From Cymbomonas tetramitiformis (Eukaryota > Chlorophyta > Pyramimonadophyceae > Pyramimonadales > Pyramimonadaceae): 64,000 nucleotides of DNA. The notes below the pieces were generated by a model. The model saw only the letters and a list, made by a program, of their open reading frames with translations, was not told the origin of the DNA and made no database searches. The stretch lies in NCBI GenBank assembly GCA_001247695.2, contig LGRX02024707.1, positions 56,720 to 120,719 of the forward strand, read 5' to 3'. Below are positions 38,361 to 60,400 of the stretch, one piece after another. The number at the start of each line of letters is the position of its first letter. Position 1 is the stretch's first letter. Position numbers and translations under genes: made by a program.

Positions 38361-39089
38361 TCCAGGTAAGTTAGTATTATCTGTACAATGCGTGTTATAT
38401 ATTACAGTATATTTACAACCGGTAGGTTCTGACTTGGCAGCACGTGGTGCTCAACGAGACCGATACACTACCGCCTCGAGCGAGGCAACAAGTTAACTAA
38501 TCTTCGTCATCAGAACTACTATCGCCGATGTCGCCGACAAAATCGACGTAGCGGTCAAGCACGACGGCAAGCACGTCTGTCCGATGTCGAATATTTAATG
38601 GAACCTTGTTACCGGTATACCGTGCAAGCCGCAAAGGCTTCCATGGAATGGGCGCCACGACCACTTGATTGTTGATGTCCTTCGCTTCGATGAATGCATC
38701 TTTGGTCTCCCATGGCATATCGGTGCGCAGGTAGATGTTTTGCGTGACCGCATCGGAAAGAGCGGCTTCGAGGGGAAACCATCTACACTTCACAAGAATA
38801 TATGTGTCAGTGTGCACGACAAGCTTGACGACCTTCAGAATTTCGCCATACCTGCCATCAGAAGTGAAAGAATCATGAACACCTGCAAATCGAGATCTAC
38901 AAGGACGCTTTGGTCCGGGCGTCCGGAACCGTGTGGCAGCATGGTTCCGGACGCCCGGAACGTATCGGACTTTTGAATATTTAAACAGATTTAATGAAAC
39001 GTAGCTTGACCATGGTCCAAACGGCCGGAACCTACACTCCACTCTTATACAGACGTCTGGAACATGTATAGTTGGCATGTCTCACCTGT

Positions 39090-39690
39090 TGTGCTAGGGT
39101 AAGTCACGAGACAGTATGATGGCGCGTCAGAGCTACGAGTGACGGGTACGATGACAGTCATCAGTGACAGGCATTTATGTGACCAGATGACAAGGGGGTC
39201 TGACAGAAATGACTGACAGAAATACCTGACCCGAAAGTGAGTTTTGGTGGGAAAACCAGCAGTCAGAGAAATTGGAGGGAAAGCTGGTATGGCCTCCAAT
39301 ATTGCCAAGTCAGCACAGTTATAATTATTCAGAGTGATATGGAGTGGTTCGGAATACAGTGATGATATAACTGGGCTAGTCGGCAGATTCTATGATGTGA
39401 CTGTTCGAGTTCTCATGAAGTATGATGGGACCTGACAGGAGTCGACATCGAGTGAAGTTCGAAAGTCGAGATCGGAAACCATGGCATAAAGCAGCCGAGC
39501 AGGCTGAATAAAACAGTTTTGAATTTGTTACTGAACAGCCACACCTGGCTGTTGTAACTCCGACATTTAAGAAAGATCCGATTCACATATATGTATCTTG
39601 CTTACAGCCATACATATCTCTTGCAGGCTTGAACTAGGTTCCCTGTATTGTTGAGTAGACTTAGAAGCTCTTAGAGAGCACCCCCGAACA
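39090..39690 (+). repeat. 5' LTR of the gypsy element
   Basis: TGTGCTAGGG ... CCCCCGAACA. Target duplication CCTGT precedes it. Confidence 0.98.
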
Positions 39691-39692
39691 AC

Positions 39693-39706
39693 TGGTATCA
39701 GCGTGG
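39693..39706 (+). promoter_or_regulatory. gypsy primer-binding site
   Basis: TGGTATCAGCGTGG begins two bases after the LTR; its first nine bases equal the usual plant primer site for the 3' end of initiator tRNA-Met (TGGTATCAGAGC). Confidence 0.72.
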
Positions 39707-40061
39707 TTGCGTTAGACGCGACCTGTTAGTGCCGACTGAACTTCGGCTGTACAATTATCGGCACACAACTTCTCCGCGAGGCCTTTCCGCGGGTTCCCAC
39801 GAAAATTCTGAAGACGACGACGTAAAACACGCTTAATTGCGTCCGCCTTTCGTCAGGGCTGCGAATTTCGACGGAAAATATCATATACTGTTCCTGAATG
39901 CATATACCACACGTTCAAGTGTGATGTAATCCGTCTTTGCAGGTACCTTTCCGCGGGATCTGCCTTTCGTTAAACCGAAATCGGCGTCAATCGGCAAAAA
40001 ATTTATCGCCCGTACTGTGTGAGTTCACTGCCGTTTACGTGCGTTCACTCACAGCGCAATC
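39707..40061 (+). other. gypsy untranslated leader
   Basis: No ATG-initiated frame of note before gag; contains TTTCCGCGGG direct repeats (39,785 and 39,949) that could belong to a packaging or dimerisation structure. Confidence 0.5.
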
Positions 40062-43000
40062 ATGGACTTTCAGCATGGAATTCCGTCGCACACGGCTGTA
40101 GCGGCTTCCACGGAGCAATCGCAGTTTCTTTCGGCAGCGAATTACTCTGAATCGCTCGACCCGAGAATTGTTTCGCACGTCTTTCCGCAATCGGCTGCGC
40201 ACACACAACCTGGACTCTCGTACGTTGGCTCAACGCAACAGCTGGATGTAAATTCTGCGTACGGATTTTTGCACGAACTGCCGCAGCGTAATTTTATGAC
40301 GGCGCCGCCGCAATTTCAGCGGAATTCGTACGATTTTTCCGGCCCCCACAGTGGGTATGACGAGCGCAGCTCTAACGGTAGCCCAATTATGACAACGCCA
40401 GCCGGTCAATTTTGGCAGCCGCAGCCCCGTGATGATTTAGCTCACCAGAGGAATTTTCAACAGCAAATTTTTCTGCAGCAACAGCAGTACGGTCAGCAGC
40501 ACCAACTGCCACCACGTGCCTTGTGGCCGCATACCACTCCGTTGCCAGCGGCTGCGTACAGCGTACCAATGGGGTACCCTTCTCCGGGTATGCTGTCTCC
40601 CCCGGTGCCGAATCTGTCAGTGCCTGAGCTCTCACCGTACCCCACGGCGTCCGTGGCACCGAATTTAGCCCTGTCCTATCCTGTTCCAGTGACGGAAGCA
40701 GCCGTTCAGCTACCACCTGCTGTGACACCTTTAGTGCACGTTGCCAGCGCAGGAATTACCCCCTCGGCAGGGGGGGGGGAAGTGGTGCAAGTACCAGTGA
40801 GTCCAGTACCACTGAGTACATTGCCCTGTGAGCCAGTAGGGGTTATTCCGGCACTGGAGACCCCTGTTCATACCCCTATTTTCACTCCGATTGCCACTAA
40901 GCTGCAGGACTTAGAACGGATGAACATGGCAGCACTGGCAGCACAATCCGTTTCTGCGACCTCCTGCCCGAAAGCGGGGAACCGAGCTTCCATATCGACC
41001 CTTTCCGCCGGAGGCTCTGGCCAAATTCCAACGTCATCGGTGACTGAAGGTGCCACTGTTGTCACTTGCCCAATGGTGGGGGATAGGGTCCCCACGTCGA
41101 CCCTTCCCGCCGGAGGCTCTGGCCAAATTTCAACGTCATCGGTGTCTGGAAGTGCCACTGTTGTTACTTGCCCAATGGTGGGGGATAGGGTCCCCACGTC
41201 GACCCTTTCCGCCGGAGGCTCTGGCCAAATTTCAACGTCATCGGTGTCTGGAAGTGCCACTGTTGTTACTTGCCCAATGGTGGGGGATAGGGTCCCCACG
41301 TCGACCCTTTCCGCCGGAGGCTCTGGCCAAATTTCAACGTCATCGGTGTCTGGAGATACGGCTATTACAACGTCATCGGTGTCTGGAGATACGGCTGTTA
41401 TAACGTCATCGGTGTCTGGAGATACGGCTGTCGCAACGTCATCGGTGTCTGGAGATATGGTCGTTACAACGTCATCGGTGTCTGAAGGTACAGCTGTTAC
41501 AACGCCATCGGTGTCTGGAGTTACGGCTGTTACCGACACACGAACTGGCTCGACGACGACGCTGGAAGGACTGGCTGTAACCAGCGAGGGGCGCGCTGAA
41601 CGAACCAGGAAGAGACCAGAACGTACTGAGCTTCTGATCCAGCGCAGCAGAGCTGTTGTCAGCCAGACTGCGACTGGTCAAGCGTCCTCTAGCTCGGCTG
41701 TCTCGGCATCCTCACCTTCAATGCCGGGACAGTCAGCAAACGCTGCTTTAGCAGCCAAGGCAGGTGTGACCCCAGTCGCCCAAGCAGGCGCAGTTCCAGC
41801 GATTCGCGATCAGAATCCCTCCCCTGTCCTGAGCGCCGGAGGCTCTGGCGAGAACCTGACTCAGCCAGCATCAGCCTTGCAACACGCGGACTTTGTATTG
41901 CCTGACCCCTATGTCTCTGCAGAGGACTTTCCAGCACTACCCCTTCCAGCGACACCGCGTCCAGCGATGGAAGCCAGAGGGGAATTGGCCAGCCGGGAAT
42001 TGGTGGCTGCCCTGGAGAGAGTTGGACCGCAGCTGAAGGAAGGAGCACGGTCTGTCAGAGCTTTGAGAGAATCAGCCCGCCTCCAAGCATCAGAGCTTCC
42101 AGCTCAGCCAGCTCGGCAGGCTCAGCCAGTTGGACAACCCTCAGTTCCTCAGGGGGACAGGCAGAGATCGCCAGACCGAAGGAAGGATTTCCGGTCGCCA
42201 GAGCAAATAGCTCTGGACCGTGCGTACAGCAAGTGCGGGAAGGACCAGAAGGTCCGGGTGATCAGATGGATAGAGGGAACCAACACTGCGTGGAGCGACC
42301 ACAGTGGGGATAGCGCGGAATCGCAGGCTTCAGCCCCCGTGAGGTTGCAGATAGTTGCTCTGTCAGCTGAGGAAAAGAAGACCCTCACGCAATGGTTCTA
42401 TAATGAACCACGCACCCGGAGCGGGAAGATCATTTGGCATCCGGCCTCCCCGCAGGAGTTGGCTGTGCTACAGGCCGGAGTGACAGAAAGGGAATACAGG
42501 CGTGCCCTTAAACACGGGACTTTGCTACACCAGGAAGGGCTGCCAAGGAAACTCTTCGCAGGAGTGAACTTTGGCAGAGCACGTGTTAAGGAAAGAGGAG
42601 CGACCCCCACCCGCAACACCTTCTCAGCTCTCTCGGATCGCTTCACAGCACTCTCAGCGGCTCCAGCAGAGGCCCAGAGGCAACCATCCGTGCCGCAGTG
42701 GGAAGAAATACCCAGATGCGGATTGGCATATCCCCCGGGCTTCTCACCAATTCCTCGTTTCCCTCCCAGCAGCGACAGCAGTGGGCCCAGTGACTCCAGC
42801 GATTCTACAGTTTCCCCGGAGCGAGGCAGCCGCGGCAGCAGCAGGCGTAGAGGCAGAGGTAGCAGCAGCGGCAGCAGCAGGCGGCAACGGAGGCGGAAGA
42901 AGCAGTTAGCCAAGAAGAGGGCAGTCAAGGCAGCTAAAGGGAAGGCTGTAGATGAGGAGCCTGCCTCTCGAGTATCAGCTCTGGAGCCTGAGCTGACAGA

Positions 43001-45101
43001 AGGGATGGCTGTCAGAACTTTGTTCAAAGACAAGGCTCTGCGGGACCAGGCTTTTGAGTGCCTCCCAGAAGAGCGTCAGAAGGCCGTCGCTCTGGCAGCA
43101 GCTCGAGGTGAAGTGGTGAGTTGGGAAGAGGAGGGCTGGGAAGCTTTGATAGCAACCCAGAGGGAGGTTCTGAAGGGAAAGGAGGCCATCTGCGCAGTAG
43201 TCCCTTCACCTGAAGAGTCGGAGTGGGTCTGGTATGACTGGACTAAGGCTCGGCATCCCTCACTGAGTCCCGACGAGGCGTGGCGTTTAGCCATAACCAC
43301 CCGATCTGAGTCCGGAGGATCACCGTCCAAGTTTGGCAATGATGAAGCATCAGGCTCAGCGTCATCGGCTAAGGCAGCCCCACCAAGCCACGAAGCCCTG
43401 GAAGAGTGGAGAGACCCACTGGTACCCATCACTGTAGAACAGGGTATCAGGGACTACGTGAGGCGCCACGATGCTGATGCTCAGACAGCCGTGGCCATAG
43501 CCAAACAGTATTCCACTCTAGCGATTAGCTATGGGCACGCTCAGAACCACAGAGCTCGGGAGTCACTGATCAGCCCGGTGATGCAGCTGGTAGGACCCAG
43601 ACGGGATCAGGCTGTTCAGAGCGGCACGGATTGCAGCAGATGCGGTAGACTGTTGTTGTCACCAACTGGAGGGGTTAAGGTCGCCTCTGGGTTAGTATGG
43701 GACGTCATGTCGGGACCCAACAGAACGTGTGAGCAAGTTCCACTCTGTCAGAATTGTACTCAGCCGCCCTGGTCTGGTGCATTGGCCCAACTGCCCAACA
43801 TCCCAACTCCCAGTGTCACTTTGCCACAGTCACAACCCCCTCGACAGTCCCAGCCTCCACCTCCACCAGAGGAACCTGAAGAAGAACCTCCGAACTGTCC
43901 ACCGCCCCGAAGACCAGTCGAGCAGGAGCAGACAGAGAGGGGTCAACAGCGGGCAGACTATACCAAGCTGAAGGAGTTGGAAGCTGAGGACAGATTGTTG
44001 CTTTCTTTACGGAAACTACGGGACCGCATCACCACGTACACATGCCCTACGGATAGCCCCAGCGGGGACAGACCATCTGGACATCTGTTAGCTCCCCTGA
44101 AGAAGTTTATGAGAGAACTGCAAGATCACTTCAAGGAGGCACTGGTGAAGAGGGCGTTGACGAAGAAGAAGTCCTGCGACGATGGAGATCAGGAAGGGGC
44201 CACCATCACCACCGTGCCAGAAGAACTACGACTGATCATCAGGGACCGGGTGGAGGGGTCAGCGCAAGGAGTTCTAACTCAGAAAGTGTTGGCCAACCAG
44301 ATGCAGAGTCCGGACGACTTAGTGGCCACGCTTGCGCGAGCGTGTGTTACTGACGCTCACCTGAGTATCTTACCCAATATGCTGTCGCGAGCTCGTCAAG
44401 CCTCTGGCAAGAACGCTGGAAGAAACGCCGCCACCTTCCATCACTCTCTCATGGAGTCCTTCGACATGTTGGAAATGCTGCATAACCATGGGGTGACGGG
44501 ACCAATAAGTAGAGCGGCACTACCGGGTATATTCCTAAGTGGACTGACACCAGAACTGCATGCCAGAGTCCACAAGGAATTGGTTGGAAAGGTGGATTTC
44601 AACCAGAGCTCTGGGAAGGTTGGATGGGAGGCAGAGCTACTGCGCAGATATGTGGAGCAAGCTACGATGGAGGAACGCAAGGATCCTGCGCATCTGAAGC
44701 CTGCCCGCGATCAATCCCCCTTCCCTGTAGCTCCTTTGGCAGAATTCTGGGAGGAAGAAGCATCTCCCAAGGAACAATGCTACGCCATGCCCACGACCAC
44801 TACTCCAACGGAAGTGGAAGGCCGGCAGCTGCCAGGATCGTCAGTCTACTCTGGCTGTCGAAAATGCAAGTCCAAGGAGCACCTGGCTCGCGACTGCCCA
44901 CATCAACACCAGCCCCAGCAGAAAGCAGCCTGGGTCAAATGTATCTGGGAGGAGGCCTTCGAGACCTTCAAGAACGCGGGAATAGATACTGGATCTGGCG
45001 GGATAGTGGAGCAGCAGCTGGCACTGGTAGCCCCGGAGCACATGGATTTTGCCGAGGGAGAGTCGACGGGGGCCGGTGGCTCTCCCGGACAACGCGGATA
45101 G
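40062..45101 (+). CDS. gypsy Gag polyprotein, 1,679 residues
   Basis: ATG at 40,062 is the first ATG after the leader. The N-terminal third is Pro/Gln/Ser-rich; about residues 300-490 hold 34-residue repeats (TLSAGGSGQISTSSVSG plus CPMVGDRVPT), then shorter SSVSGDTAV repeats. A basic RGSSRRRGRGSSSGSSRR region lies near residue 940. A helical capsid-like part lies around residues 1,360-1,560 (LPGIFLSGLTPELHARVHKE), and a CCHC zinc knuckle CRKCKSKEHLARDC near residue 1,600. At nearly 1,700 residues it is several times longer than usual Gag. The last 51 bases overlap the protease frame after the proposed slippery site. Confidence 0.9.
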   Translation: MDFQHGIPSHTAVAASTEQSQFLSAANYSESLDPRIVSHVFPQSAAHTQPGLSYVGSTQQLDVNSAYGFLHELPQRNFMTAPPQFQRNSYDFSGPHSGYDERSSNGSPIMTTPAGQFWQPQPRDDLAHQRNFQQQIFLQQQQYGQQHQLPPRALWPHTTPLPAAAYSVPMGYPSPGMLSPPVPNLSVPELSPYPTASVAPNLALSYPVPVTEAAVQLPPAVTPLVHVASAGITPSAGGGEVVQVPVSPVPLSTLPCEPVGVIPALETPVHTPIFTPIATKLQDLERMNMAALAAQSVSATSCPKAGNRASISTLSAGGSGQIPTSSVTEGATVVTCPMVGDRVPTSTLPAGGSGQISTSSVSGSATVVTCPMVGDRVPTSTLSAGGSGQISTSSVSGSATVVTCPMVGDRVPTSTLSAGGSGQISTSSVSGDTAITTSSVSGDTAVITSSVSGDTAVATSSVSGDMVVTTSSVSEGTAVTTPSVSGVTAVTDTRTGSTTTLEGLAVTSEGRAERTRKRPERTELLIQRSRAVVSQTATGQASSSSAVSASSPSMPGQSANAALAAKAGVTPVAQAGAVPAIRDQNPSPVLSAGGSGENLTQPASALQHADFVLPDPYVSAEDFPALPLPATPRPAMEARGELASRELVAALERVGPQLKEGARSVRALRESARLQASELPAQPARQAQPVGQPSVPQGDRQRSPDRRKDFRSPEQIALDRAYSKCGKDQKVRVIRWIEGTNTAWSDHSGDSAESQASAPVRLQIVALSAEEKKTLTQWFYNEPRTRSGKIIWHPASPQELAVLQAGVTEREYRRALKHGTLLHQEGLPRKLFAGVNFGRARVKERGATPTRNTFSALSDRFTALSAAPAEAQRQPSVPQWEEIPRCGLAYPPGFSPIPRFPPSSDSSGPSDSSDSTVSPERGSRGSSRRRGRGSSSGSSRRQRRRKKQLAKKRAVKAAKGKAVDEEPASRVSALEPELTEGMAVRTLFKDKALRDQAFECLPEERQKAVALAAARGEVVSWEEEGWEALIATQREVLKGKEAICAVVPSPEESEWVWYDWTKARHPSLSPDEAWRLAITTRSESGGSPSKFGNDEASGSASSAKAAPPSHEALEEWRDPLVPITVEQGIRDYVRRHDADAQTAVAIAKQYSTLAISYGHAQNHRARESLISPVMQLVGPRRDQAVQSGTDCSRCGRLLLSPTGGVKVASGLVWDVMSGPNRTCEQVPLCQNCTQPPWSGALAQLPNIPTPSVTLPQSQPPRQSQPPPPPEEPEEEPPNCPPPRRPVEQEQTERGQQRADYTKLKELEAEDRLLLSLRKLRDRITTYTCPTDSPSGDRPSGHLLAPLKKFMRELQDHFKEALVKRALTKKKSCDDGDQEGATITTVPEELRLIIRDRVEGSAQGVLTQKVLANQMQSPDDLVATLARACVTDAHLSILPNMLSRARQASGKNAGRNAATFHHSLMESFDMLEMLHNHGVTGPISRAALPGIFLSGLTPELHARVHKELVGKVDFNQSSGKVGWEAELLRRYVEQATMEERKDPAHLKPARDQSPFPVAPLAEFWEEEASPKEQCYAMPTTTTPTEVEGRQLPGSSVYSGCRKCKSKEHLARDCPHQHQPQQKAAWVKCIWEEAFETFKNAGIDTGSGGIVEQQLALVAPEHMDFAEGESTGAGGSPGQRG
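45044..45050 (+). promoter_or_regulatory. candidate -1 frameshift site GGATTTT (gag/pro)
   Basis: Reads G-GAT-TTT in the Gag frame and lies 51 nt before the Gag stop, inside the overlap with the protease frame, which is -1 relative to Gag. It resembles the GGATTTA slip site of some betaretroviral pro-pol junctions. No structure prediction was done. Confidence 0.45.
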
Positions 45102-47275
45102 GCCCCCAGGCCCGCGAGGTAAGTACTCCGCACCTCGCCATGGCCATCAGGAGGGAGGCCGACTCTGGAAGAGAACCAGAGAGAGGCAGGCAGAGTCAGA
45201 CCTACCGGTGGATCACTCACTTCAGAGAGGATCATCGGATGAGGCACGGACCAGGACCAGCGCAGCGAGCAGTGGAGAAGATGAGGCGAGCATTACGCTG
45301 GCTGAAGAGGTCACGGCCAATCACAGTGGTAGCACCAGGGAGAACTGAGCCAAACGCTGCGCCCGCACAGGCATCCCAACCAACAGAGGTTCAGATCAGA
45401 TTTCCTCTGTTCGGCAAAGGGAGTCAAGGAGCCCCTAGCTCAAAAGGGGTGTACCAGCGCGCGTTGCAGCCCCCAGGAGTCAGAAGAGTGCGCTTTAGAG
45501 AGGAAGCAGCCCCGCGCCAGCTGGTCGGGAGAGCTCTGCGCCGACAACTGGATCGCGCTAAGCAGCCAGTGCTATCACACGCCCAGCAACGGTTACGCGA
45601 CGGACACCTGTCAGCAGCCTGGAAAGCAGCACAGACAGTAACGCGCAGAAGGAAGGAAGTGGAAGTGCACGGGCACAGAGTCAGAAGTGCATTGGCGCAG
45701 ATTCGGGAGCGTGTTGACCAGCTGAGGAAGATCACCCGGGCGCATCAGGAAGCAGAGGCAGCTCGACCTGCGCCATGGCCTGGTGATTCAGAACCAGAAG
45801 ATCAGGTCACCAGGCAGGCTCGTTGGCAAGCCAAGATAGCAGAGGCCGGCACGTACCATCTGCCGGAAGACAATTCAGATGAGGAGCTGAATCCGCCTGA
45901 GAAGGAGCCAGGACTGCACAAACTGGCCAGCATCAGACCAGAGATAGGGGTGGACGCAGGGTCTGGACGCTGGGGAGAATGGTTGGATGCAGATGTACTA
46001 GCTGCTATGGACGCGAAGGGACCCACTCTGCTGATTTTCTGGGCTTGGGTAGGCAGAGTACGAGTAAAGGTCTTGGTGGACTCTGGAGCTTCTTCTAGCT
46101 TCACTTCTGTGGAGGCCGCCAAGAAGTTTAAACTCCAGCCCAAGAAACACGAGACGCCGATGAAGGTGCAGGTGGCAGATGGCACCGTGTACGACGCCAA
46201 CTCTTGCGTCCGTCCGAAGCTCACAGCCGAGACACGGAAGGGCAGTTATGCCAAACAGGTTACTCTGCGCGTCATGCCATTAGCACTCGGAGTGGACATA
46301 GTGTTGGGCGGAGACTGGCTACGAGCACAGAAGAAGGTCACATTTGACTACGCCCAGTATGGTAGCGTGAAGTTCGGACATGGGTCGCAGAAAGTAGTCA
46401 TCGCGGGTTGCAACCCTGGGTCGTCATCTACAGGGTCTGGGCAGGCCATGGGACTGGTAGAGGCACAGCTTATCAGTACTAAGCAAGCCAGGAAGGACCT
46501 GCGAGCTTTGAAGAATAGCGGCGAGGAGGCGTACCTGATGTATCTGGCTCCAGATGGCACATTTAAAATGGAGGCCACCGACGACCCCAACTCTCCCTTA
46601 GAGGCCTCTGCAGCCTTATCAGAGTCATCTTCATCATCATCATCGGAGGCAGAGGGTGACAACGCTAGGCCGAGGGGGGGGGAAGTTACCTCTGACGAGG
46701 AAGGCTGCGACAGCGACAGTACAGTAGCAAGCGTAGCCACCCTAATCTCCGACAGCAGTTCGTCTGAATCTGAACAAGATGCAACGGAGCAGGAGGACTG
46801 GGCACAGGAGCAGGTGTGTGCTCTGCGACCGGTGACGTGCCCCACATCAGCGCAACCCGCTGTGCGAGACTGGGGACCTTACCCCACAAGGGCCAGATGG
46901 GAGGCGTTCCAGATGCTTCCACGAGAGCGCAGGGAGCAGGCTGCACAGCATCACGCGGAGGAATTGGAACCTGAGTGGGAAGAGGAGGCATACTGTTTGT
47001 GGAAAACAGGGCAGGCACTGCGTCTGCAGCAGGAGCAACGGAGGAGCAGAGGGGTGAACCACAGGAGATCGCGCAGAGTTAGCGAGCCAGTACTGGCAGC
47101 ACCTATAGAAGCTGAGACAGGGCAAGGCAAAGATGGGTATAGCTGTTTCAGGAAAGAGGCACCAGCTGCTGCGGCGACACCTAGTGATGAGCGGACAGCA
47201 AAGGTGAGACCAAGGAGGCCAAGCCGGATGAGGAGGACGCAGAGGTACCACAATGGATCCTGGACGAGCTGGTGA
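45051..47275 (+). CDS. gypsy protease polyprotein (pro frame)
   Basis: Frame is -1 to Gag; it is open from 44,624 but has no needed ATG, so expression by frameshifting near 45,044 is proposed. About 740 residues. The first part is basic (RRALRWLKRSRP, QQRLRDGHLSAAW), followed by an acid protease: VKVLVDSGASSSFTSVEAAK at about 46,064-46,120 and DIVLGGDWL at 46,297. A Ser/Glu-rich linker precedes the end. The TGA stop at 47,273-47,275 overlaps the pol frame, which is again -1. Confidence 0.85.
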
Positions 47276-50200
47276 AGCTGAAGCAGCGGTACCAGGACGT
47301 GGTGGGCATGGAGCTTCCTGAGGGCGTCGTGGACCGCGACCACAAATCGCCGCTGCGCGTGGACCCCGAGTACCGTGATGGTGCACGGCACAAGAGGTGC
47401 TACAAGCTGTCCATGGAGGAGTTGCGACAACTTCGTGGACAACTGGACGAGCTCTTGGCAAAGGGATACATCCGTCCCTCGTCTTCACCTTGGGGCAGTC
47501 CAGTCCTGATGGTGCCCAAGCCCTCCAACCCCAAGGAGCTGCGACTGGTGATCGACTATCGCCAGATCAACGAGATCACCGTGAAGGACCGTTACCCTCT
47601 CCCTGACGTACAGTCTCTCATCGATGACCTGCATGGAGCGACTATCTTCTCTACCGCGGACGCTCTGTGGGGATTCTGGCAGGTGCCCATGGAGGAGGAC
47701 GCGATCGAGAAGACGGCCATGACCACGCCGTTTGGAGCTTATGAGTGGTTGGTCATGCCTATGGGGCTGTCCAATAGCCCTTCGTGCTGGCAGCGAATGA
47801 TGCAGAAGTACTTGGGCCACCTGCCGTTCGTCAGAGTCTTTGTGGATGACATCATGATCTTCTCTCGCAACCCCGAGGAGCACCTGGACCACCTGCGGCA
47901 GGTTTTGGAGGTATGCCGACAGAATAAGGTCAAGTTGAAGGAGTCCAAGTTACGTTGTTTTAAACGCTCAGTACGTTTTCTGGGACACGTCATTGACCGC
48001 ACAGGTTGCCGACCTCAGCAAGACAAGATAGCTTCCATACGGGACTGGCCGCGACTCGAGACGGTGAAGCACGTGCGACAGTTCTTGGGCTTGGCTGGGT
48101 TCTATCGACGGTACATACAGGGTTTCGCTGACTTAGCGCACCCTTTGACCAAGCTGACTAAGAACCTAGTGCCATGGGAATGGGGACCAGAGCAGGAACA
48201 CGCCTTTGAACGCCTCAAGACCGCTCTCACCACCGCACCGACCTTGATCTTGCCCGATCAGGAAGCAGCGCATCGCGGCACCAGCCCCTTTGTTGTGCAG
48301 ACTGATGCGAGTGCAGTGGCTTTAGCTGGCGTGCTGATGCAGGATCTAGGCAAGGGCCTGCAACCCATAGCCTTCGAGAGTAAGCAGTTCTCGTCTGCTG
48401 AGCAGAACTACCACGCAGGTGAGCGTGAGCTAGCCGCCATCCACCACTGCACTACGCAGACTTGGAGACATTACCTGATATTCACGGAGTTCAGGTTAAT
48501 GGGGGATCATGCTCCTCTAAAGTGGTTATTCGCACCTGGACGGGAGCTCAGCCGACGCCAGGCTAGGTGGTACGAAGACCTGGTGGAGGTAGGAGTGCAC
48601 GCCATGGAGCACGTGCCTGGACGCACACTGGTGGTACCGGACGCTGCCTCACGGCGACCGGACTACGTGCAGGCGACGGCGCGCGAGGGGCTGAAGGAGG
48701 CTGGCTATGTGGATCCGAGCACTGACCAGCCGGTGTCTGCAGAGGAGGGTAGAAGAGCTGCGGGAGCCAAGGGGAAATCAGAAGACATGGTGGCTGGCCT
48801 GAAGGTTGCAGAAGAGGAAGACCCCACTTCACCCCTGGACTTAGAGCTCAGCTCGTCGGACGAGGAGGAAGGTGAGTACCCACCGGTCAGTGAGCCCAAA
48901 GTAACCGGTAAGCTAACTCAGCTGAACGGTCTCTGGTGGGCAGAAACACCGGACTTATGGCTGGACGCTATGGTCACAGTGGAGAGGATGGCCGCGCTAC
49001 CAGCAATGGCAGGAGTCCAGACACGAGCCCAGAGTGAGCAGCGACCAGCAGAGAAGCAGCAGCCAGCAGCGGTACAGCAGCAGTCCTCACCAAGGATGCA
49101 ACCTGGGGAACCCCTGGTAGACAATCAGGACTGGAAGCTGATTCCGTCCGAGTTTAGTCGATTGCAAGCCAAGTACGCGAAAGTGTTGGGTGGACGGTTC
49201 CAGGTGGACGCATGCTGCGACCTCATGGGGCAGAACCGGCAGGTGGACACGTTCTGGACAGATTGTCTGAAGGAACAGTGGAGGGGTCGCGTGGTGTGGT
49301 GTAACCCACCCTTCTCGGATTCCAAGGTGAGCATTGCTGACATCCTAAGACACTATGCTTCAGAGGCCCGACACGCTCCCCAGAGCACAGCCGCGCTGTT
49401 CCTGTTGCCTGACTTCCCGCAGGCTGACTGGCGGCCCCTGCTGCGAGAGTACGGAATGGAAATTGCAGAGACCATACCCCGAGTGAACGAGCAAGGGGAG
49501 CCCAACCGGATGTTCGTCTCTCCTGGCGAAGAAAGGGGACACCGTACAGCCCTGCAAGAGTTGCCCATTCCATGGCCCGTCTTGGTAGTGTTGGCTAAGC
49601 CGCAGCGGAAGCACTTTGAAGAGATCACAGCCCCAAGGGAGAGACCCTCAGCATCACCAGCGGTAACTCTCAAGGGCGCAGCAGCCAAGATCAGGGACCA
49701 GGCAGGAGTGGTGGAACCAGGCATGTTTCTGCGTGCCTTACGAGCAGAGCACAGGCGCAGCGAGTACCTTTCAGCTCTGAAGCAGGAACTACTGGCCACT
49801 CAACATCACCGCACCGAGCATTTTCGACTGGTGAGTAACATCATCTGGAGAGTGGCGGAAGGGCGCTATCAGGTGGTCTTAGCTCCCGACTCCCCTCTGA
49901 GAGAGCTGGTCTTGAGGGAGGCTCATGAAGCACCTGCAGCTGGCCACACAGGGAGGGACAAGACCCTGGACAGAGTCAGGCGACGATTCTGGTGGCCGCG
50001 TATGGATCTGGACGTAGCTGAATGGGTGAAGACGTGTGTAACCTGCCAGCAAACCCAGCCGCGCCAGGGATACCCAGCAGGCCTGTTACAGCCTCACTCT
50101 GTGCCTAGTCGATTGTGGGAAGTGGTGAGTATAGACTTTGTTACTGGGCTCCCCACGACAGAGAGAGGTGTGAACGCCTTCGCCACCTTTACTTGTAAAC

Positions 50201-52206
50201 TGAGTAAGATGGTGCACGTGGTCCCAATGGCGTACAATGATAGCTCAGCGGAGGTGGTGACCAGAATGTTCATGGATGCGGTGTGGCGACTGCACGGAGC
50301 CCCAATGAAGATTGTGTGCGACCGGGACCCGCGCTTTCGAGATGCTCTGACCCAGGAGTTCATGCGACTGATGGGCGTGAAGGTAGCCAGCACCACCCCT
50401 TATCACCCGCAGAGTGATGGCCAGGCGGAGCGCAGTAACCACACTGTGGAGCGCATGCTGCGTTGCTACGTGGCAGAGAACCAGGAGGATTGGGACCTGT
50501 GGGTGGCTCCAGTGGAGTACGCCATCAACGACTCCAAGTCGGCAGTGACAGGGTTCTCACCGTTCGAACTGGTGTATGGACATGCGCCAGCGACTCAGTT
50601 GGACCTCTTCATGGATGCAGCTCTGGAGGGAGGCGCAAAGAGGAGGAAGGGAGGTCGCACAGCAGCGGACAAGCAGGGTACCGCTCACCAGCTGGCCAAG
50701 CAGTTCGCGCAGCAGCTGCAGGCGGCACGAGAAGGTTTGCAACTAGCTCAGCAGCGTATGATAGAGCAGTTCGATGCACGGCACCGTCTCCAACAGTACA
50801 AGGTGAATGATCAGGTGTGGGTGGATGGACAGCACCTGACGCTGCCCGGTGACAGGGGCTTGAAACCCAAGTTGCGCAAGTTGCGGCACGGACCTCTGCG
50901 AGTAGTAGAGTGTCTATACAGTGATCGACAGCAAGAACTGCCAGTACAGGACCGAGGAGCCCCGTCAGCCTACAGACTGGAGCTGCCTGTGCACTGGAAG
51001 GTACATGACACTTTCACTGCAGACAGGCTCAGCCCAGTACAGTCAGGCGCAGATCACTTTGTTAGCAGACGGGAGGAGATGGCACCACCGCCAGTAATGG
51101 TAGAAGGGCAGAAGGAGCGCGAGGTGGAGCGCATCATTCGCACGCGCTTCAGAAAGCTAGGCGGAAAAACTGGCGGGTCAGTACAGGAGTGGTTGACTAA
51201 GTGGAAGGGATTACCACACAGTCACAGCCAGTGGCGGACTCGAGAAGACCTGGAGGGCAAGGGAGGCAGGCTGGAACCTCTGAGAGCCTTTGAGGCTGAT
51301 GAGGAGAAGCAGAGGAGGGCTCCAGAAAAGAGGCGTAGGGAGACGCACGGCCAGCAGCAGGAGCAGAGGGCTCAGCTCATGGCAATGAGAGCCCCCACTC
51401 CGAAGGTTTACAGTAAGGGTGCCAGTCAGGTGTACCAGCCACATCTCACAACAGTGCAACACCCTGTGAGAATCCTCGTCCTCTTCTGTGGGACTGGATC
51501 TGTGGAGCAACAGTTCCAACGACAGTTCGACGGCTGCGAAGTGGTGACAGTGGATATTCTTCCCAAGTGGCAAGCAACATGCACCGAGGACATTCTCCAC
51601 TGGAACTACAAGCTGTACCCCCGACACCACTTCGACGTGATCTGGGCGAGCCCACCATGTAAGGAGTACAGCAAGGCCAAGACTATAGGAGTACCAGATC
51701 TGGAACTGGCTGATCGACGAGTGAAACGTACCCGGCAGATCATCGAGTACTACGATCCAGCATACTACTTCATTGAGAACCCAGCTGGGGATGCACTGCG
51801 AGGGCTGCACACGCGACCTGTGATGAAGGGGTTACCCGATCCTCACCCCGTCTCCTACTGTAGGTATGGGACACCTTACATGAAACCTACACATATCTGG
51901 ACGAACGCCGTGCTACCCGTACCCCTGCTGCAGTGTACTCAAGCAACGCCATGTCCCGCGAGAGCTGTGCTGGGAAAGCACGAGAACACATCGCAAGAAG
52001 GAGTTTCAGCGTCCAGAACACGAGGCATGGGGTCAGCGCAAGCAGTATACGCGATTCCCCGCACCTTATTGCACCATCTGTTCTGTGGACTGAAGTTGGG
52101 CAAGCGCATGAGCGAGGAAAGTGCAGCAGCTATCATGGACCTCATCGCCACCCTGACAGCGCAGACGGATGAGATCTCGATGCAGGAACAAGATACTGGG
52201 GTCTAA
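47191..52206 (+). CDS. gypsy Pol: RT-RNase H-Dam-like-integrase-chromodomain-C5 methyltransferase
   Basis: The pol frame opens at 47,191 after TGA and overlaps pro; no ATG is used. Counting residues from 47,272: reverse transcriptase with RLVIDYRQIN and FVDD (191-194), RNase H (TDAS 344), a Dam-like domain about 620-780 (FQVDACCDLM, WCNPPFSD at 678, LFLLPDFPQADW), integrase zinc region (HTGRDKT, CVTCQ), integrase core Asp about 955, Asp 1017 and Glu 1053, chromodomain-like EVERIIRTRF...LTKWKGL about 1,285-1,340, and a cytosine methyltransferase 1,400-1,610 with LFCGTGSVE, ASPPCKEYS (catalytic Cys), ENPAG and YCRYGTPYMKPT. The last motif is typical of phage C5 methyltransferases lacking a large target domain. 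All catalytic motifs appear intact. Confidence 0.95.
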   Translation, partial: ADSKGETKEAKPDEEDAEVPQWILDELVKLKQRYQDVVGMELPEGVVDRDHKSPLRVDPEYRDGARHKRCYKLSMEELRQLRGQLDELLAKGYIRPSSSPWGSPVLMVPKPSNPKELRLVIDYRQINEITVKDRYPLPDVQSLIDDLHGATIFSTADALWGFWQVPMEEDAIEKTAMTTPFGAYEWLVMPMGLSNSPSCWQRMMQKYLGHLPFVRVFVDDIMIFSRNPEEHLDHLRQVLEVCRQNKVKLKESKLRCFKRSVRFLGHVIDRTGCRPQQDKIASIRDWPRLETVKHVRQFLGLAGFYRRYIQGFADLAHPLTKLTKNLVPWEWGPEQEHAFERLKTALTTAPTLILPDQEAAHRGTSPFVVQTDASAVALAGVLMQDLGKGLQPIAFESKQFSSAEQNYHAGERELAAIHHCTTQTWRHYLIFTEFRLMGDHAPLKWLFAPGRELSRRQARWYEDLVEVGVHAMEHVPGRTLVVPDAASRRPDYVQATAREGLKEAGYVDPSTDQPVSAEEGRRAAGAKGKSEDMVAGLKVAEEEDPTSPLDLELSSSDEEEGEYPPVSEPKVTGKLTQLNGLWWAETPDLWLDAMVTVERMAALPAMAGVQTRAQSEQRPAEKQQPAAVQQQSSPRMQPGEPLVDNQDWKLIPSEFSRLQAKYAKVLGGRFQVDACCDLMGQNRQVDTFWTDCLKEQWRGRVVWCNPPFSDSKVSIADILRHYASEARHAPQSTAALFLLPDFPQADWRPLLREYGMEIAETIPRVNEQGEPNRMFVSPGEERGHRTALQELPIPWPVLVVLAKPQRKHFEEITAPRERPSASPAVTLKGAAAKIRDQAGVVEPGMFLRALRAEHRRSEYLSALKQELLATQHHRTEHFRLVSNIIWRVAEGRYQVVLAPDSPLRELVLREAHEAPAAGHTGRDKTLDRVRRRFWWPRMDLDVAEWVKTCVTCQQTQPRQGYPAGLLQPHSVPSRLWEVVSIDFVTGLPTTERGVNAFATFTCKLSKMVHVVPMAYNDSSAEVVTRMFMDAVWRLHGAPMKIVCDRDPRFRDALTQEFMRLMGVKVASTTPYHPQSDGQAERSNHTVERMLRCYVAENQEDWDLWVAPVEYAINDSKSAVTGFSPFELVYGHAPATQLDLFMDAALEGGAKRRKGGRTAADKQGTAHQLAKQFAQQLQAAREGLQLAQQRMIEQFDARHRLQQYKVNDQVWVDGQHLTLPGDRGLKPKLRKLRHGPLRVVECLYSDRQQELPVQDRGAPSAYRLELPVHWKVHDTFTADRLSPVQSGADHFVSRREEMAPPPVMVEGQKEREVERIIRTRFRKLGGKTGGSVQEWLTKWKGLPHSHSQWRTREDLEGKGGRLEPLRAFEADEEKQRRAPEKRRRETHGQQQEQRAQLMAMRAPTPKVYSKGASQVYQPHLTTVQHPVRILVLFCGTGSVEQQFQRQFDGCEVVTVDILPKWQATCTEDILHWNYKLYPRHHFDVIWASPPCKEYSKAKTIGVPDLELADRRVKRTRQIIEYYDPAYYFIENPAGDALRGLHTRPVMKGLPDPHPVSYCRYGTPYMKPTHIWTNAVLPVPLLQCTQATPCPARAVLGKHENTSQEGVSASRTRGMGSAQAVYAIPRTLLHHLFCGLKLGKRMSEESAAAIMDLIATLTAQTDEISMQEQDTGV

Positions 52207-52328
52207 AACCCTCAGGGCGCAAAGCAGCGCAAGACCCGCAAAGCGAGAAAAGTACCAGGGCGACAGAACCGTTTAAGCGTTGGCAGCGTAATTCGGGGAC
52301 GGAACCTAGGGAAACCTCCAGCGCGGAA

Positions 52329-52448
52329 GGGGACTCAGACCCAAGGACTGAGGGGCACGGGACCCAAGAACCCGAGGCTTAGAAGCCAGGGGGACTCAGA
52401 CCCGAGGACTGAGGGGCACGGGACCCGAGAACCCGAGGCTTAGAAGCC
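52329..52448 (+). repeat. 60-bp tandem duplicate in the gypsy 3' untranslated region
   Basis: Two units from GGGACTCAGACCC to TTAGAAGCCAG; they differ at two positions (CCAAGGA/CCAAGAA against CCGAGGA/CCGAGAA), the same A-to-G change twice. Confidence 0.9.
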
Positions 52449-52532
52449 AGCATCACTGTGCATGTTTGTTGATCCCCAGACAATGTAAATACAGGCGAAC
52501 TCTAACGCTAGCGAGGACGTAAGCGCGCGCCT

Positions 52533-52546
52533 AAAAGGGGGGAGAG
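52533..52546 (+). promoter_or_regulatory. gypsy polypurine tract
   Basis: AAAAGGGGGGAGAG immediately before the 3' LTR; expected plus-strand primer. Confidence 0.9.
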
Positions 52547-52547
52547 T

Positions 52548-53148
52548 TGTGCTAGGGTAAGTCACGAGACAGTATGATGGCGCGTCAGAGCTACGAGTGA
52601 CGGGTACGATGACAGTCATCAGTGACAGGCATTTATGTGACCAGATGACAAGGGGGTCTGACAGAAATGACTGACAGAAATACCTGACCCGAAAGTGAGT
52701 TTTGGTGGGAAAACCAGCAGTCAGAGAAATTGGAGGGAAAGCTGGTATGGCCTCCAATATTGCCAAGTCAGCACAGTTATAATTATTCAGAGTGATATGG
52801 AGTGGTTCGGAATACAGTGATGATATAACTGGGCTAGTCGGCAGATTCTATGATGTGACTGTTCGAGTTCTCATGAAGTATGATGGGACCTGACAGGAGT
52901 CGACATCGAGTGAAGTTCGAAAGTCGAGATCGGAAACCATGGCATAAAGCAGCCGAGCAGGCTGAATAAAACAGTTTTGAATTTGTTACTGAACAGCCAC
53001 ACCTGGCTGTTGTAACTCCGACATTTAAGAAAGATCCGATTCACATATATGTATCTTGCTTACAGCCATACATATCTCTTGCAGGCTTGAACTAGGTTCC
53101 CTGTATTGTTAAGTAGACTTAGAAGCTCTTAGAGAGCACCCCCGAACA
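52548..53148 (+). repeat. 3' LTR of the gypsy element
   Basis: Identical to the 5' LTR except one base near its end (AAGTAGAC instead of GAGTAGAC); followed by the CCTGT target duplication. Confidence 0.98.
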
Positions 53149-53779
53149 CCTGTCCTGGTCGTCTTCTTGCATTTCGGACACGTCGGTGCCTCTTCGGGAA
53201 GCAGACCTTTGAAAAGAAAATTGCACTTCTGGCACACATCCATCTCGTTGTACTTCATGAGGAAATCCTTGAAAAACCGCAGGCACGCTTGGTAGGTATG
53301 AGGTAGTGCTACCTCGTCATCGGTCGAGATTGATTCATCGTCGACCTCCAAGCCGCATACTCGACGTCGCAGAATTTCCAGGATTGTGTCAAAGTACGCC
53401 TGGGTCGAGTTATGGTTGGAGTGGGCCTCAAGTAGATCCAGTATGAAGCGGTTTGCAAGGGTAGTCGATTTGTCATGCACATTTTCTCCCTCCTGCAATT
53501 TAGTCACACAGCATCTGATTGATTTTGGTCCAGAGGGGTTCCACACGTAAGGACGCACCTTTCCAATGACTTGGAATAGTGATATAGTGCAGTTTTCGGA
53601 AGGCATTCAATCTGTGCGTATTGAACTTACCATGATGAATTCCGGGTCCCTTGTTCGGTCGTTTTCACGTTGCTCGCGCGCATCACTTTCCTCCTCCTAG
53701 AATACGGCGGGCATCCACTCCCATCAACCCAGCAATCCTGAACTAATAAGATGCGATGTAAGAATCTGGCTTACAGTGA

Positions 53780-56454: not shown

Positions 56455-57391
56455 TCACTGTAAATGTATTTGGAGCCATGGTTCCAAGTCTTTGGAACCA
56501 TGTCCGTTTAAGCCTTTGGAGCCATATATGTTTAAGCCTTTTGGAAACGTTGTTCCAAATCGTTGGAAATGCGGTTCCAAGCGTTTGAAATTAATGAAAT
56601 GTATGAAGCAAAATAAATGTATTTGGAACCATGGTTCCAAGCCCTTGGAACATGTCCGTCCAAGCTTTTGGAAACATTGTTCCAAAGCTTTGGAACAATG
56701 GAACCTGGCCATGCAATTCTCGTTTAACAGATTCTAAGCCCCGTCCAAGCCCTCGGAACTCGCTTGGAACCTTAATTTAACAGCTTCCAAGCCCTTGGAA
56801 TCACGTTGGAATCTCTGTTTAACTGAGTCCAAGCCCTATCCAAGCCCTTGGAACCCCCTCGGAAACTTCTTTTGACGGAGTCCAAGACCCGTCCAAGTCT
56901 TTGGAACCCCTTTGGAACCTGTTTTTTTGCAGCGTCCAAGCCCTTGGACCCTCCTCGGAATCACCGTTTGGCAGAGTCTAAGCCCCGTCCAAGCCTTTGG
57001 AACCCCATTGGAATGCCCGTTTAACAAGGTCCGAGCCCCGTCCAAGCATTTGGAACCCCCTTGGAATCGCCAATCTAAAAAAATCCTATGGGAATCCAAG
57101 CCGATGGTCCAAGCGGGTCCAACGGGGTTCCAAGCTGACGGTCCAGATGGGTCCTATGGACTTCCAAGCCGAGGGTCCAACGGCTTGGAACCCCTTTGGA
57201 ATCGTGTGTAAATTCCAAGGGGGTTCCAAGGGCTTGGATAGCAAATGTCCAGGTCCAAGCCGTTGGACCGCGGCTTGGACGGGGCTTGGACCTGGACATT
57301 TGCTGTCCAAGCCCTTGGAATTCCCAGTGTTAACGCCAACGCCTCTCAAACACACACCTGTCCTATCGGGCCCTACGGGGTTCCAAGCCGA
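56455..57391. repeat. right subterminal array of CCAAGCCCTTGG palindromes
   Basis: Repeated every 55-70 bp in the pattern TCCAAGCCC(C)GTCCAAG then CCCTTGGAACCCC, spaced by AT-richer TTTAACAGA linkers. Mirrors the array at 37.3-38.4 kb in inverted position. Confidence 0.88.
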
Positions 57392-57428
57392 CGGTCCAAG
57401 CCCTTGGAATGTTCCTTATTTTGTAGGG
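57392..57428. repeat. right TIR of the CACTA-like element
   Basis: Ends ...TTATTTTGTAGGG; reverse complement CCCTACAAAATAAGG. AGG duplication follows at 57,429-57,431. Confidence 0.85.
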
Positions 57429-57461
57429 AGGAGCCTACATACAGTGATATTTGAGGAGAAG

Positions 57462-60400
57462 ATGGAGTACAGTGACTCCACTCGCCTTGCCCTTGGCACT
57501 CTGCCCATATATACGGGCACCAAGGAGGAAGACCGGCCTAAGTTCTTGAGGGACTTCGCCCTCATGTGCGAGAACTTCATACGCCAGCACAACGCCAGCA
57601 TCAGGAAGAAGCTCAGGTCCGTGGCGAACGCTAATCTCACTGAAGCGCAAAAGAAAGCCCTGAGGGAGACACCTCCTGACTGGGAGACACTTTGGGATAT
57701 CGTCCCCGCGTGTCTAGCTGGTGAGAACTCGCAAAGCCTCAGCTGGTGGCGTGAGAATTATGAAAGCGGGGGTGTAGTGGCTTCGAACACGGATAGGGTG
57801 CTCAAGGACACCAGCGTACATGGCCCACTCGAGGGCTCTATCCCATGCGCTAGGCCCCCCTTTAATGAAATGAATGCTGGTACTACGTGGGTAATCGCGA
57901 GACCAGCAACAACCCAGGACGCTCAAGGAGAGGTGTCCAACGAGTATCTGACTGATGGTACCTCGCTGAAAGGGTTGACGGGTCAATATGTCACCCATGA
58001 CACGCAGTACTTCTACGCCCTCAGGGGCTTCATTGCTGCGCTTGACAAGAAGTTCATGATGAAGGGAACACAGGAAAAAGTTGATCTGTTGACCCAGAAG
58101 CCCCAAGAACTGGGGCAAGATGGTCTAACGTATATGAAGATGTGTCAACGCAGGGAGATGCAGCTCAACACCGGGAAGGTGCTGAGCGACGAGGCTCTAC
58201 GTACCTTCATCGAGGACTGCGTCGAGAACCTCCGCATCAAGATCTTCCAGACGCGGGTGAAAGAGCAGCTGAGGGCTCAGTTCCCGCCACCCAACCGGGT
58301 GACCTGGAAGGACCTGGAGGCCATCATCGAGGTGCAGGACAAGCTCAAGAACGATGCGGAGTCCTGGTTCCTCACCTTCCTGCAGGAGATCACTAGGCGG
58401 TGCGGCTGCCAGTATTCCACCTGGGAAGCCCGACAGCATGGCCTCGACCTCAAGGCCATCAAAAACTCGATCAGGAAGATAGAGTCAGCCGTGGAAGGGC
58501 AGTCAGGCGACCCTGAGACCAGCAAGAAGGCGGACACATCGCCTTCTAAAAAGATGAAGAAGGAGGTGAACGTCGCGGAGAGAGCCAAGAAGCCTGCGTA
58601 CAACAAGACACCTCCACCGGCAGAGGGCAGTCGTACCAACGACAAGCCCAAGTGTTTGCGCTGCTTCGGAGGAGGCTGGCATGAATCCGACCCCGAGCAG
58701 TGCAGAAGTGGCTACAAACACGTCAAGATGCCAGCGGGGTACCACGAGAGCAGGCTTGGGTCCAGTAAGTGGTGGGATGCCGAGAACGCCGCCTTACGGA
58801 TGTACAACTTGAAGAACCGCTTCAAGAACTCCGACTGGGGCATCCTGGTGACCGACTGGCAGCAGCTGTCCAACGACGAGAAGGACAAGTACCGTGCTAA
58901 GCCGCCACCAGCGGACAAACAGAAGAGCCCAACTGGTAATTCAGACGCACTGAAGGCTGAGTATCAGGGCATGGTGGCTGCCCGAAAGACTGTCAGTCGT
59001 GCTGGCAGTGTGAAGTCACAGGTGCTCTCCGAGGACGAAGGTTCCGACGAGGAGCTGGTCGCTTCGAACGTCGCGGAAAGGGAGGTGTACATCTCTGACG
59101 CGCACGAGGTGAACCACCGCGAGATCACTGGGCCAGGAGTGTCATCCGGCTCTCCAGCCAGCTTGCTCTCAGCACTGGCTGAAGAGATGGGCGAGGAGGT
59201 GCTCTCAGACGCGCTCAACACCCTAGGCTTAGGGGAGCTCCCCGAAGCACTGAGCAAGGGCGGTGAGCCCGAGGTCATGGCAGCACCAGCAGTAGCGCTG
59301 GGTAGCACTCAACACATGAGGGGATTCCCAGTGAAGACACCCGAAGAGTACGAGGCAGATGCGCAGGTGCCTATGGCGCCGGCAGCGGACGAGATGCAGA
59401 GGAAGGTGCAGCTCATGGCCTCTGTGATCAAGAGTCTGGGCGCGGCTTTCCGGAAGCTGGCTGCTGGGCTCGTAGCGGAGGGCAGGATAACAGCCCCCAG
59501 GGGTGTGGAGACTTTGGTGGAGCTAGCTGAGACCGGTCAGCTCCCCATGCCAGCAGCCTTAGCAGCAGACTGTCAGAGCAGTGGCGAAGGTGATGGTGAT
59601 GACGACGAAGACGACGACTGCCCAGGAATGGAGTCTGGTGATGACAGCGACGAGGAAGAGATCCCCCTGGACGAGATGCCGGAGGACATGGTGGACCAAC
59701 CTAGTAAGAAGAGAGCTGCTGTGCACGTCACCGCTGCGGCAGCCACAATTCAGGAGAAGTTCGGGGTGACGGACTTCAGTGGGAAGGGCGAGCTACACGC
59801 AGGAACTATGGAGGCCAAAGCCTACGAGCTACTGAAGAGGAAGATGCTCAGTGGCCTCACGGAGGAACAGCTCACAGCCATGGCGCAGGTTCAGCCCGTG
59901 TGTAAGCTCCTGAACGAGACGCTGGCACAAGGGATGGCCCTCGTGGCCTCTAGTGGGCTACTCATGCTGTACAAGGCCCTGCTCCTAGACACCGGGGCCA
60001 ACTGCAACATCATCCCCATTAGGACGGTCAACCGGCTCGGTCTGACCATCTTTGATGCGGAGACAGGGGCCAGGGTGGCCAGGTGCGACGGCAGCCCCGC
60101 GGAGCTCACCAAGTACTGTTACGTGGACGTTATTCTCGCTGCAGGCACTCCTTACATGACTCTGCACCGGCTCCATGCCTTCGTCACGTTCACCAACGAC
60201 ACCACGCACGTGGGACTTCCTGGTGGGCACAGGACCCCTGAAGAACGCGTTGAAGCTTACCATCGACCTCTACCGGGGTGTCGCCACCTCTGAGGCCGCG
60301 GTGTCGTTGAGCATGAGGGAGAAGGTCACGTTGCCGCTGATTGAACTGACGCCGCCTGCTGACGCGAGGAGTAAACGGAACGAGGACCCCAGGGTGTGCT

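Follow-up and report, generated by a model that had tools for sequence, protein, structure and literature searches.

Adenine and cytosine DNA methyltransferase domains in the Pol polyprotein of a Ty3/gypsy retrotransposon from the green alga Cymbomonas tetramitiformis

Several retrotransposons are known to carry DNA methyltransferases, and the statements made here on them refer to the available parts of the cited papers. In Klebsormidium nitens, the long terminal repeat (LTR) Gypsy element KnitGypsy-Dnmt3 bears a C5-cytosine methyltransferase (C5) within Pol, under purifying selection (de Mendoza et al. 2018, PMC5890265), and the SymbioDIRS-Dnmt3 and SymbioLINE-Dnmt elements of Symbiodinium carry C5 enzymes in many copies, with activity in yeast for the DIRS ones (PMC5890265). 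In DIRS1-like retrotransposons, reverse transcriptase (RT) and RNase H are followed in Pol by a methyltransferase of unknown function (PMC3266345), and DIRS methyltransferases have been called similar to bacterial Dam (PMC5890265). C5 enzymes in gypsy, DIRS and LINE (long interspersed nuclear element) retrotransposons, and Dam-like domains in DIRS elements, are therefore already published (PMC5890265; PMC3266345). Here we describe a 64,000-nucleotide stretch of the marine green alga Cymbomonas tetramitiformis (contig LGRX02024707.1, positions 56,720 to 120,719; hereafter the window), in which a pol frame is part of a complete 14.06-kb Ty3/gypsy LTR retrotransposon (39090-53148) whose Pol polyprotein holds both a Dam-like domain and a C5 domain.

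The enzyme of KnitGypsy-Dnmt3 belongs to the Dnmt3 family, and the available text describes no adenine methyltransferase in that element, whereas the window element combines a short phage/virus-like C5 (family phrog_757) with a Dam-like domain. The Symbiodinium elements are tyrosine-recombinase and LINE elements rather than LTR elements with an integrase, and for them the available part of the paper describes no accompanying Dam (PMC5890265). Similarly, a tyrosine recombinase replaces the integrase in DIRS1-like elements, for which the available text describes no C5 enzyme (PMC3266345). Chromoviruses, including the green-algal Chlamyvir, share with the window element a Ty3/gypsy Pol ending in a chromodomain (PMC3350952; PMC10675990), but the Chlamyvir chromodomains are of group I (PMC3350952) and that of the window is group II-like. 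A degraded Chlamyvir-related element with a chromodomain has been reported in Cymbomonas itself, in a paper whose text does not contain the word methyltransferase (PMC10675990). Phage enzymes of PF05869 and phrog_757 have the same sequence families and catalytic motifs as the two window domains; they are encoded by separate phage genes, whereas here they are domains within Pol. A 2025 survey lists DNMT3 in LTR Copia and in DIRS elements; gypsy, Ty3 and Cymbomonas are not mentioned in its available part (PMC12344493). In a literature search that did not extend to bioRxiv, most subscription journals or Repbase, we found no published LTR element whose Pol combines Dam with C5, and no gypsy element reported to carry a phage-type C5. 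The original prediction, made from the letters of the window, had called this combination unusual; that holds for the literature searched and not for nature, where an entire clade is as a rule built this way, as shown below.

In a Pfam search, the domain order of the window Pol is RT-RNase H-Dam-integrase-chromodomain-C5 (coordinates in Table 1). The element belongs to Ty3/gypsy: it has paired LTRs with TG...CA ends, a short target-site duplication, and the order protease, RT, RNase H, integrase. An integrase with an H2C2 finger is present where DIRS elements have a tyrosine recombinase, and the chromodomain lies C-terminal to the integrase as in chromoviruses. The integrase core itself scores 32.4 bits, just under its cut-off of 32.6, and the H2C2 finger is well above its own. 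The predicted architecture, a gypsy pol in which a Dam-like domain separates RNase H from integrase and a phage-type C5 forms the C-terminus, with a chromodomain in the same polyprotein, is thus borne out.

C5 methyltransferases are recognised by motifs I (FxGxG-like), IV (PPC) and VI (ENP), which the window domain keeps as LFCGTGS, SPPC and IENP. PPC and ENP were kept in all 26 proteins of one set, and in a larger set in 58 and 57 of 59, respectively. The domain matches phrog_757 at an E-value (E) of 6.3e-15, and its fold matches known C5 DNA methyltransferases. It falls under the curated cut-off of PF00145 (17.5 bits against 22), a family found in the precomputed annotation of just 4 of the 43 other members of the clade described below; by sequence, the best PDB matches of the C5 profile are tRNA methyltransferase/DNMT2. 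Twelve phage records are 29-36% identical to the domain. Judged by its sequence relatives, it is a C5 of the short phage/virus-like type (phrog_757).

A scan of viral sequences with the whole Pol gave no relative, and with the C5 domain it gave at least 509, of which 80 were kept. In a quick C5 tree (73 domains thinned from 237, with the Dnmt families left out and 12 of 70 inner branches starred), the gypsy C5 domains mostly cluster beside short ENA/JGI proteins of about 200 amino acids. Fifteen of the 16 IMG/VR sequences left after thinning form a group of their own apart from the gypsy C5 group, the 16th also lies outside it, and the C5 domains of P0200 and P0241 fall elsewhere. These results suggest, with modest supports, that gypsy elements captured C5 on more than one occasion, the source being a phage- or virus-like enzyme. 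Because the tree is quick, with that number of starred branches, we claim no donor. Among the relatives of the C5 domain, one lies in a protein with a further match to a methyl-CpG-binding domain (P0073) and one in a protein with a PHD-finger match (P0110).

The catalytic motif of Dam enzymes is [DN]PP[YFW], and the window Dam keeps it as WCNPPF, so that catalytic motifs are retained in both methyltransferase domains. Its score to PF05869 is 28.4 as an isolated slice and 25.4 within the whole Pol, against a curated cut-off of 28.1; the relative P0175 scores 41 bits, and PF05869 stands in the precomputed annotation of 24 of the 43 other clade members. A close phage origin of the window Dam is unsupported, as tblastn of this domain against phages returned no record at 1e-5. 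For the Dam of one relative, 674 phage records match at E ≤ 0.01; among the matches listed, 12 in number, 40-58% of the domain is covered and the annotation reads adenine, Dam or plain (DNA) methyltransferase. These annotations, and the observation that PF05869, a phage DNA family, is the only Pfam match at E ≤ 0.01 in all nine clade members checked, argue against the Dam-like domain modifying RNA (the cap or internal N6-methyladenine of the element transcript) and leaving DNA to C5 alone. A common fold says nothing of the substrate, and we regard an RNA substrate as unlikely.

To place the element, relatives were collected by likeness to residues 640-1671 of the window Pol (the best 120 of 122 proteins, with the 7989 candidates sharing most words scored), and a maximum-likelihood tree was built from 87 near-complete RTs, leaving out the 34 of 121 proteins (window Pol included) with no or partial RT. 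The outgroup is not clean and long branches are joined, both outside the clade of interest. The nearest proteins that bear a species name come from Cymbomonas tetramitiformis. The window Pol falls in a 44-member clade of Cymbomonas and ENA/JGI proteins (support 96/99), in which Dam follows RNase H in 44 of 44 members and C5 is found in full in 38, with six lacking a full match; because of the way in which the proteins were collected and scored, 38 of 44 should not be read as a frequency in the population. A sister pair (86/84) has C5 and no Dam, and 38 proteins outside the clade have no full match to either domain (partial in P0207, P0247 and P0248). Because the profiles behind these counts had been built from the same proteins, and the counts were thus partly circular, the count was repeated with the single domains of the window as queries. 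At E < 1e-3, Dam was found in 43 of 44 clade members (P0194 at E 0.0036) and C5 in 39 of 44, compared with 2 and 3 of 43 outside.

The order RT-RNase H-Dam-integrase-C5 holds in 37 of the 38 members with all five domains, the exception being P0188, with C5 first. Outside the clade, a Dam-like domain stands ahead of RT in P0204 and P0222, and C5 does so in P0241; C5 also precedes RT in P0203 and P0188. The two domains have therefore changed place repeatedly, inside a gypsy Pol or from one to another. The tree could be explained by Dam having been gained once, at the root of the clade; both domains have moved elsewhere too. Domain identities were compared in 35 of these 38 members, setting aside P0188 and two that failed a strict coordinate check (P0141 and P0154). 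Mean pairwise identity is 0.53 for RT, 0.53 for integrase, 0.60 for RNase H, 0.49 for C5 and 0.35 for Dam, compared with 0.18 and 0.22 for the linkers flanking Dam; clade RTs can be as little as 34% identical. The distances of RT, integrase, Dam and C5 are correlated with one another (Spearman 0.55-0.69, a level reached by 0 of 999 permutations), as expected if the four domains travel together.

The window family is young, high-copy and recently active. In the genome searched (851.7 Mb in 25,745 contigs, containing the window), the C5 query gave at least 142 loci, scored from 8010 candidates, 98-100% identical, of which 2 have a stop; the Dam query gave at least 150, scored from 7053 candidates, 97-100% identical, again with 2 interrupted. 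Eleven fetched copies are 99.4-99.9% identical to the window pol, and in each of them pol stays free of stops upstream as far as the fetched sequence reaches. A second family, retrieved with P0137, gave 40 scored copies, each with Dam-integrase and C5 stretches in the same domain order, 82% identical over Dam and integrase and 79-80% over C5, with frames up to 2618 codons. Of the two results named beforehand as refuting the prediction, lack of an HMM match for either region and loss of the catalytic residues in every copy, neither occurred. An assembly chimera, or a chance join of neighbouring elements, could be suspected from the window copy, in which the protease sits in a separate frame and the pol frame does not run on into it. 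This is refuted by 18 contigs that hold both domains in one unbroken frame of 2552-2577 codons (the C5 and Dam lists agree on the length, so that protease and pol are continuous there and broken in the window copy), and by the same order in ENA/JGI proteins and in the second family; what chance is left to it is negligible.

Since between-family dN/dS is saturated for most domains, selection was examined within the family, by counting unique single-base codon changes among 12 copies (the window, L105-L114 and L118), picked mostly for long open frames. Nonsynonymous and synonymous changes number 3:11 in Dam (P = 1.9e-5) and 3:16 in C5 (P = 5.9e-8), with 5:46 in RT, 1:12 in RNase H, 1:24 in integrase and 3:17 in the chromodomain region; the linker between RNase H and Dam has 7:7 (P = 0.034) and the last 37 residues 3:0. 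Six copies of the second family give 5:15 for C5 (P = 9e-7) and 1:3 for Dam (P = 0.034). Both enzymes have therefore been kept by selection within recent activity. Among the 12 copies, RT has a pairwise synonymous divergence of 0.077, above the 0.007-0.042 of the remaining pol regions, likely owing to recombination between subfamilies.

These counts, together with the near-constant C5 motifs, run counter to the view that the domains are passengers, captured once and now decaying or serving as mere scaffolds that bind nucleic acids. Dam is where such a view could find support: of 64 Dam domains, taken from the clade and from further Pols, 49 have NPP[YF] and 15, spread over several distinct branches, lack NPP, and Dam is less conserved than C5. 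For C5 the passenger view is already disfavoured by the sequences, and for the pair as a whole we consider it very improbable. Adenine methylation may be dispensable in some lineages, or the proteins lacking NPP may be decayed copies. Because the Dam motif has been lost repeatedly across lineages and the C5 motif almost never, C5 seems to be the more indispensable of the two.

The chromodomain had been predicted to steer the element to marked chromatin. HP1 has three aromatic residues at the cage of its chromodomain, and the window domain has R/W/L, so that two of the three are missing and classical steering by histone marks appears doubtful for this element. Cage residues could be read by pattern in 28 of 35 clade members (7 gave no pattern match), with Y/W/Y, F/W/Y and A/W/Y in 5 each, R/W/L in 3, one of them the window, and further sets in the remaining 10. 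In the five relatives with Y/W/Y, steering would thus be possible. According to the available part of PMC3350952, group II retrotransposon chromodomains are without the first aromatic residue, in most cases without the third as well, and their role is little known. A PHD-finger pattern, also labelled by Pfam, lies between Dam and integrase in P0175, P0176, P0178, P0180 and P0187.

What is established directly is a complete element with its domains, motifs and folds, the co-inheritance of these domains, and selection keeping both enzymes. As to function, we favour, with moderate confidence, a gypsy Pol with two catalytically equipped methyltransferases that both act on the element's own cDNA or on its insertion site, as the original prediction had suggested. 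As both are parts of Pol, Dam and C5 would be expected to accompany RT and integrase in the particle in which cDNA is synthesised and from which it is inserted. The simplest substrate of both would be the element's own double-stranded cDNA; this cDNA, or the insertion site, would be methylated before or at integration, and a new copy would enter the genome already carrying marks of host DNA. In yeast, two SymbioDIRS-Dnmt3 domains methylated CG de novo, as reported in the available part of PMC5890265.

Several observations weigh against this reading. The SymbioLINE and Klebsormidium gypsy Dnmt domains were negative in yeast, a result called inconclusive in the available text (PMC5890265). NPP is missing from the 15 Dam domains noted above, the reading frame of the window copy is broken between protease and RT, in the overlap 47191-47275, and the choice of copies for the selection test favours intact ones. 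There is also no excess of CpG transitions among the 12 copies (13 of 602 CpG sites compared with 85 of 2620 other C/G sites). The ratio of observed to expected CpG is nevertheless lower for the element (0.70) than for the remaining window (0.85); three second-family loci have 0.91-0.92. Neither N6-methyladenine (6mA) nor 5-methylcytosine (5mC) substantially shapes base composition across eukaryotes, according to the available part of PMC12695648, so this footprint neither supports nor refutes methylation.

The enzymes could instead act in trans on host or foreign DNA, for instance against the large DNA viruses endogenised in the alga, to the gain of host or element. A published hypothesis, in the part of it available, gives retrotransposon-borne DAM and DCM domains antiviral roles (PMC6338049), and the title of the Cymbomonas genome paper refers to many endogenous viral elements (PMC10675990). 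Nothing in the sequence points to a trans role, however, and both domains are fused in Pol with cDNA-handling enzymes, in the nearly constant order given above; we find action in trans improbable.

If the methyltransferases act on the cDNA or insertion site, the marks may carry meaning for the host. In the prasinophytes Micromonas and Ostreococcus, 6mA lies at the start of active genes and 5mC between nucleosomes in gene bodies, as far as the available text of PMC12695648 shows, and both marks might therefore be readable in Cymbomonas too. We infer that an element writing both would make its copies resemble host genes. It is possible, and proposed here tentatively, that the clade writes both host marks, adenine methylation as a label of active genes and cytosine methylation as a label of gene bodies or host DNA, so that each insertion would receive a forged epigenetic identity; loss of the Dam motif would then indicate hosts not using 6mA.

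Table 1. Features of the retrotransposon in the window (Pfam scores are given where a profile matched)
Feature	Position	Strand	Evidence or remark
Target-site duplication CCTGT, left copy	39085..39089	.	read directly; equals 53149-53153
5' LTR, 601 bp, TG...CA	39090..39690	+	one mismatch to the 3' LTR
Putative primer-binding site TGGTATCAGCGTGGTT, just after the 5' LTR	39693..39708	+	sequence; taken by us to be initiator-Met-like
ORF1 (open reading frame 1), Gag-like, stop-to-stop length 1692 codons, zinc knuckle towards the end	40023..45101	+	PF00098 E 0.0016, below cut-off
Tandem repeats of 102-nt and 33-nt units (both multiples of three), inside the Gag frame	40965-41563
ORF2, aspartic protease at about 46055-46318	44513..47275	+	PF13650 E 6.2e-8
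ORF3, Pol polyprotein of the window copy, 1671 codons without stop, last of three frames	47191..52206	+
Reverse transcriptase	47371..48090	+	PF00078 E 9.8e-33
RNase H	48181..48600	+	PF17917 E 5e-27
Dam-like N6-adenine methyltransferase domain (core), WCNPPF starting at 49297	49138..49575	+	sequence, profile match
Integrase, H2C2 zinc finger and catalytic core	49876..50550	+	Pfam
Chromodomain, cage positions R/W/L	51121..51261	+	PF00385 E 8.6e-8, 32.4 bits (cut-off 25.1)
C5-cytosine methyltransferase domain, codon of the catalytic Cys (in SPPC) at 51658-51660	51460..52092	+
Putative polypurine tract ahead of the 3' LTR	52533..52546	+	sequence
3' LTR, 601 bp	52548..53148	+	LTR comparison
Target-site duplication CCTGT, right copy	53149..53153	.	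sequence

Between pol and the 3' LTR lie two tandem 61-nt copies (52329-52450). Two further frames are found downstream of the element. At 56982-60293 on the forward strand, a frame of 1103 codons contains the protease-like word DTGANC, matches no Pfam family at 0.01 and resembles the Gag-protease portion of another retroelement. At 61037-61792 on the reverse strand, a frame of 251 codons matches N6_N4_Mtase exactly at the Pfam cut-off (26.7 bits), and 61309-61088 is 76% identical to the start of the EukProt protein P0014, a C5 relative; this is possibly another mobile element with a methyltransferase.

Retrotransposons with a single DNA methyltransferase already pose a known puzzle, namely why an element should write a mark by which it is often silenced. 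In the present case two writers of different chemistry have been kept by a natural family, in one polyprotein, across a divergent clade. With many young copies and a published long-read assembly of Cymbomonas, self-methylation can be asked directly on individual insertions, and the lineages that have lost only the adenine motif provide a built-in control.
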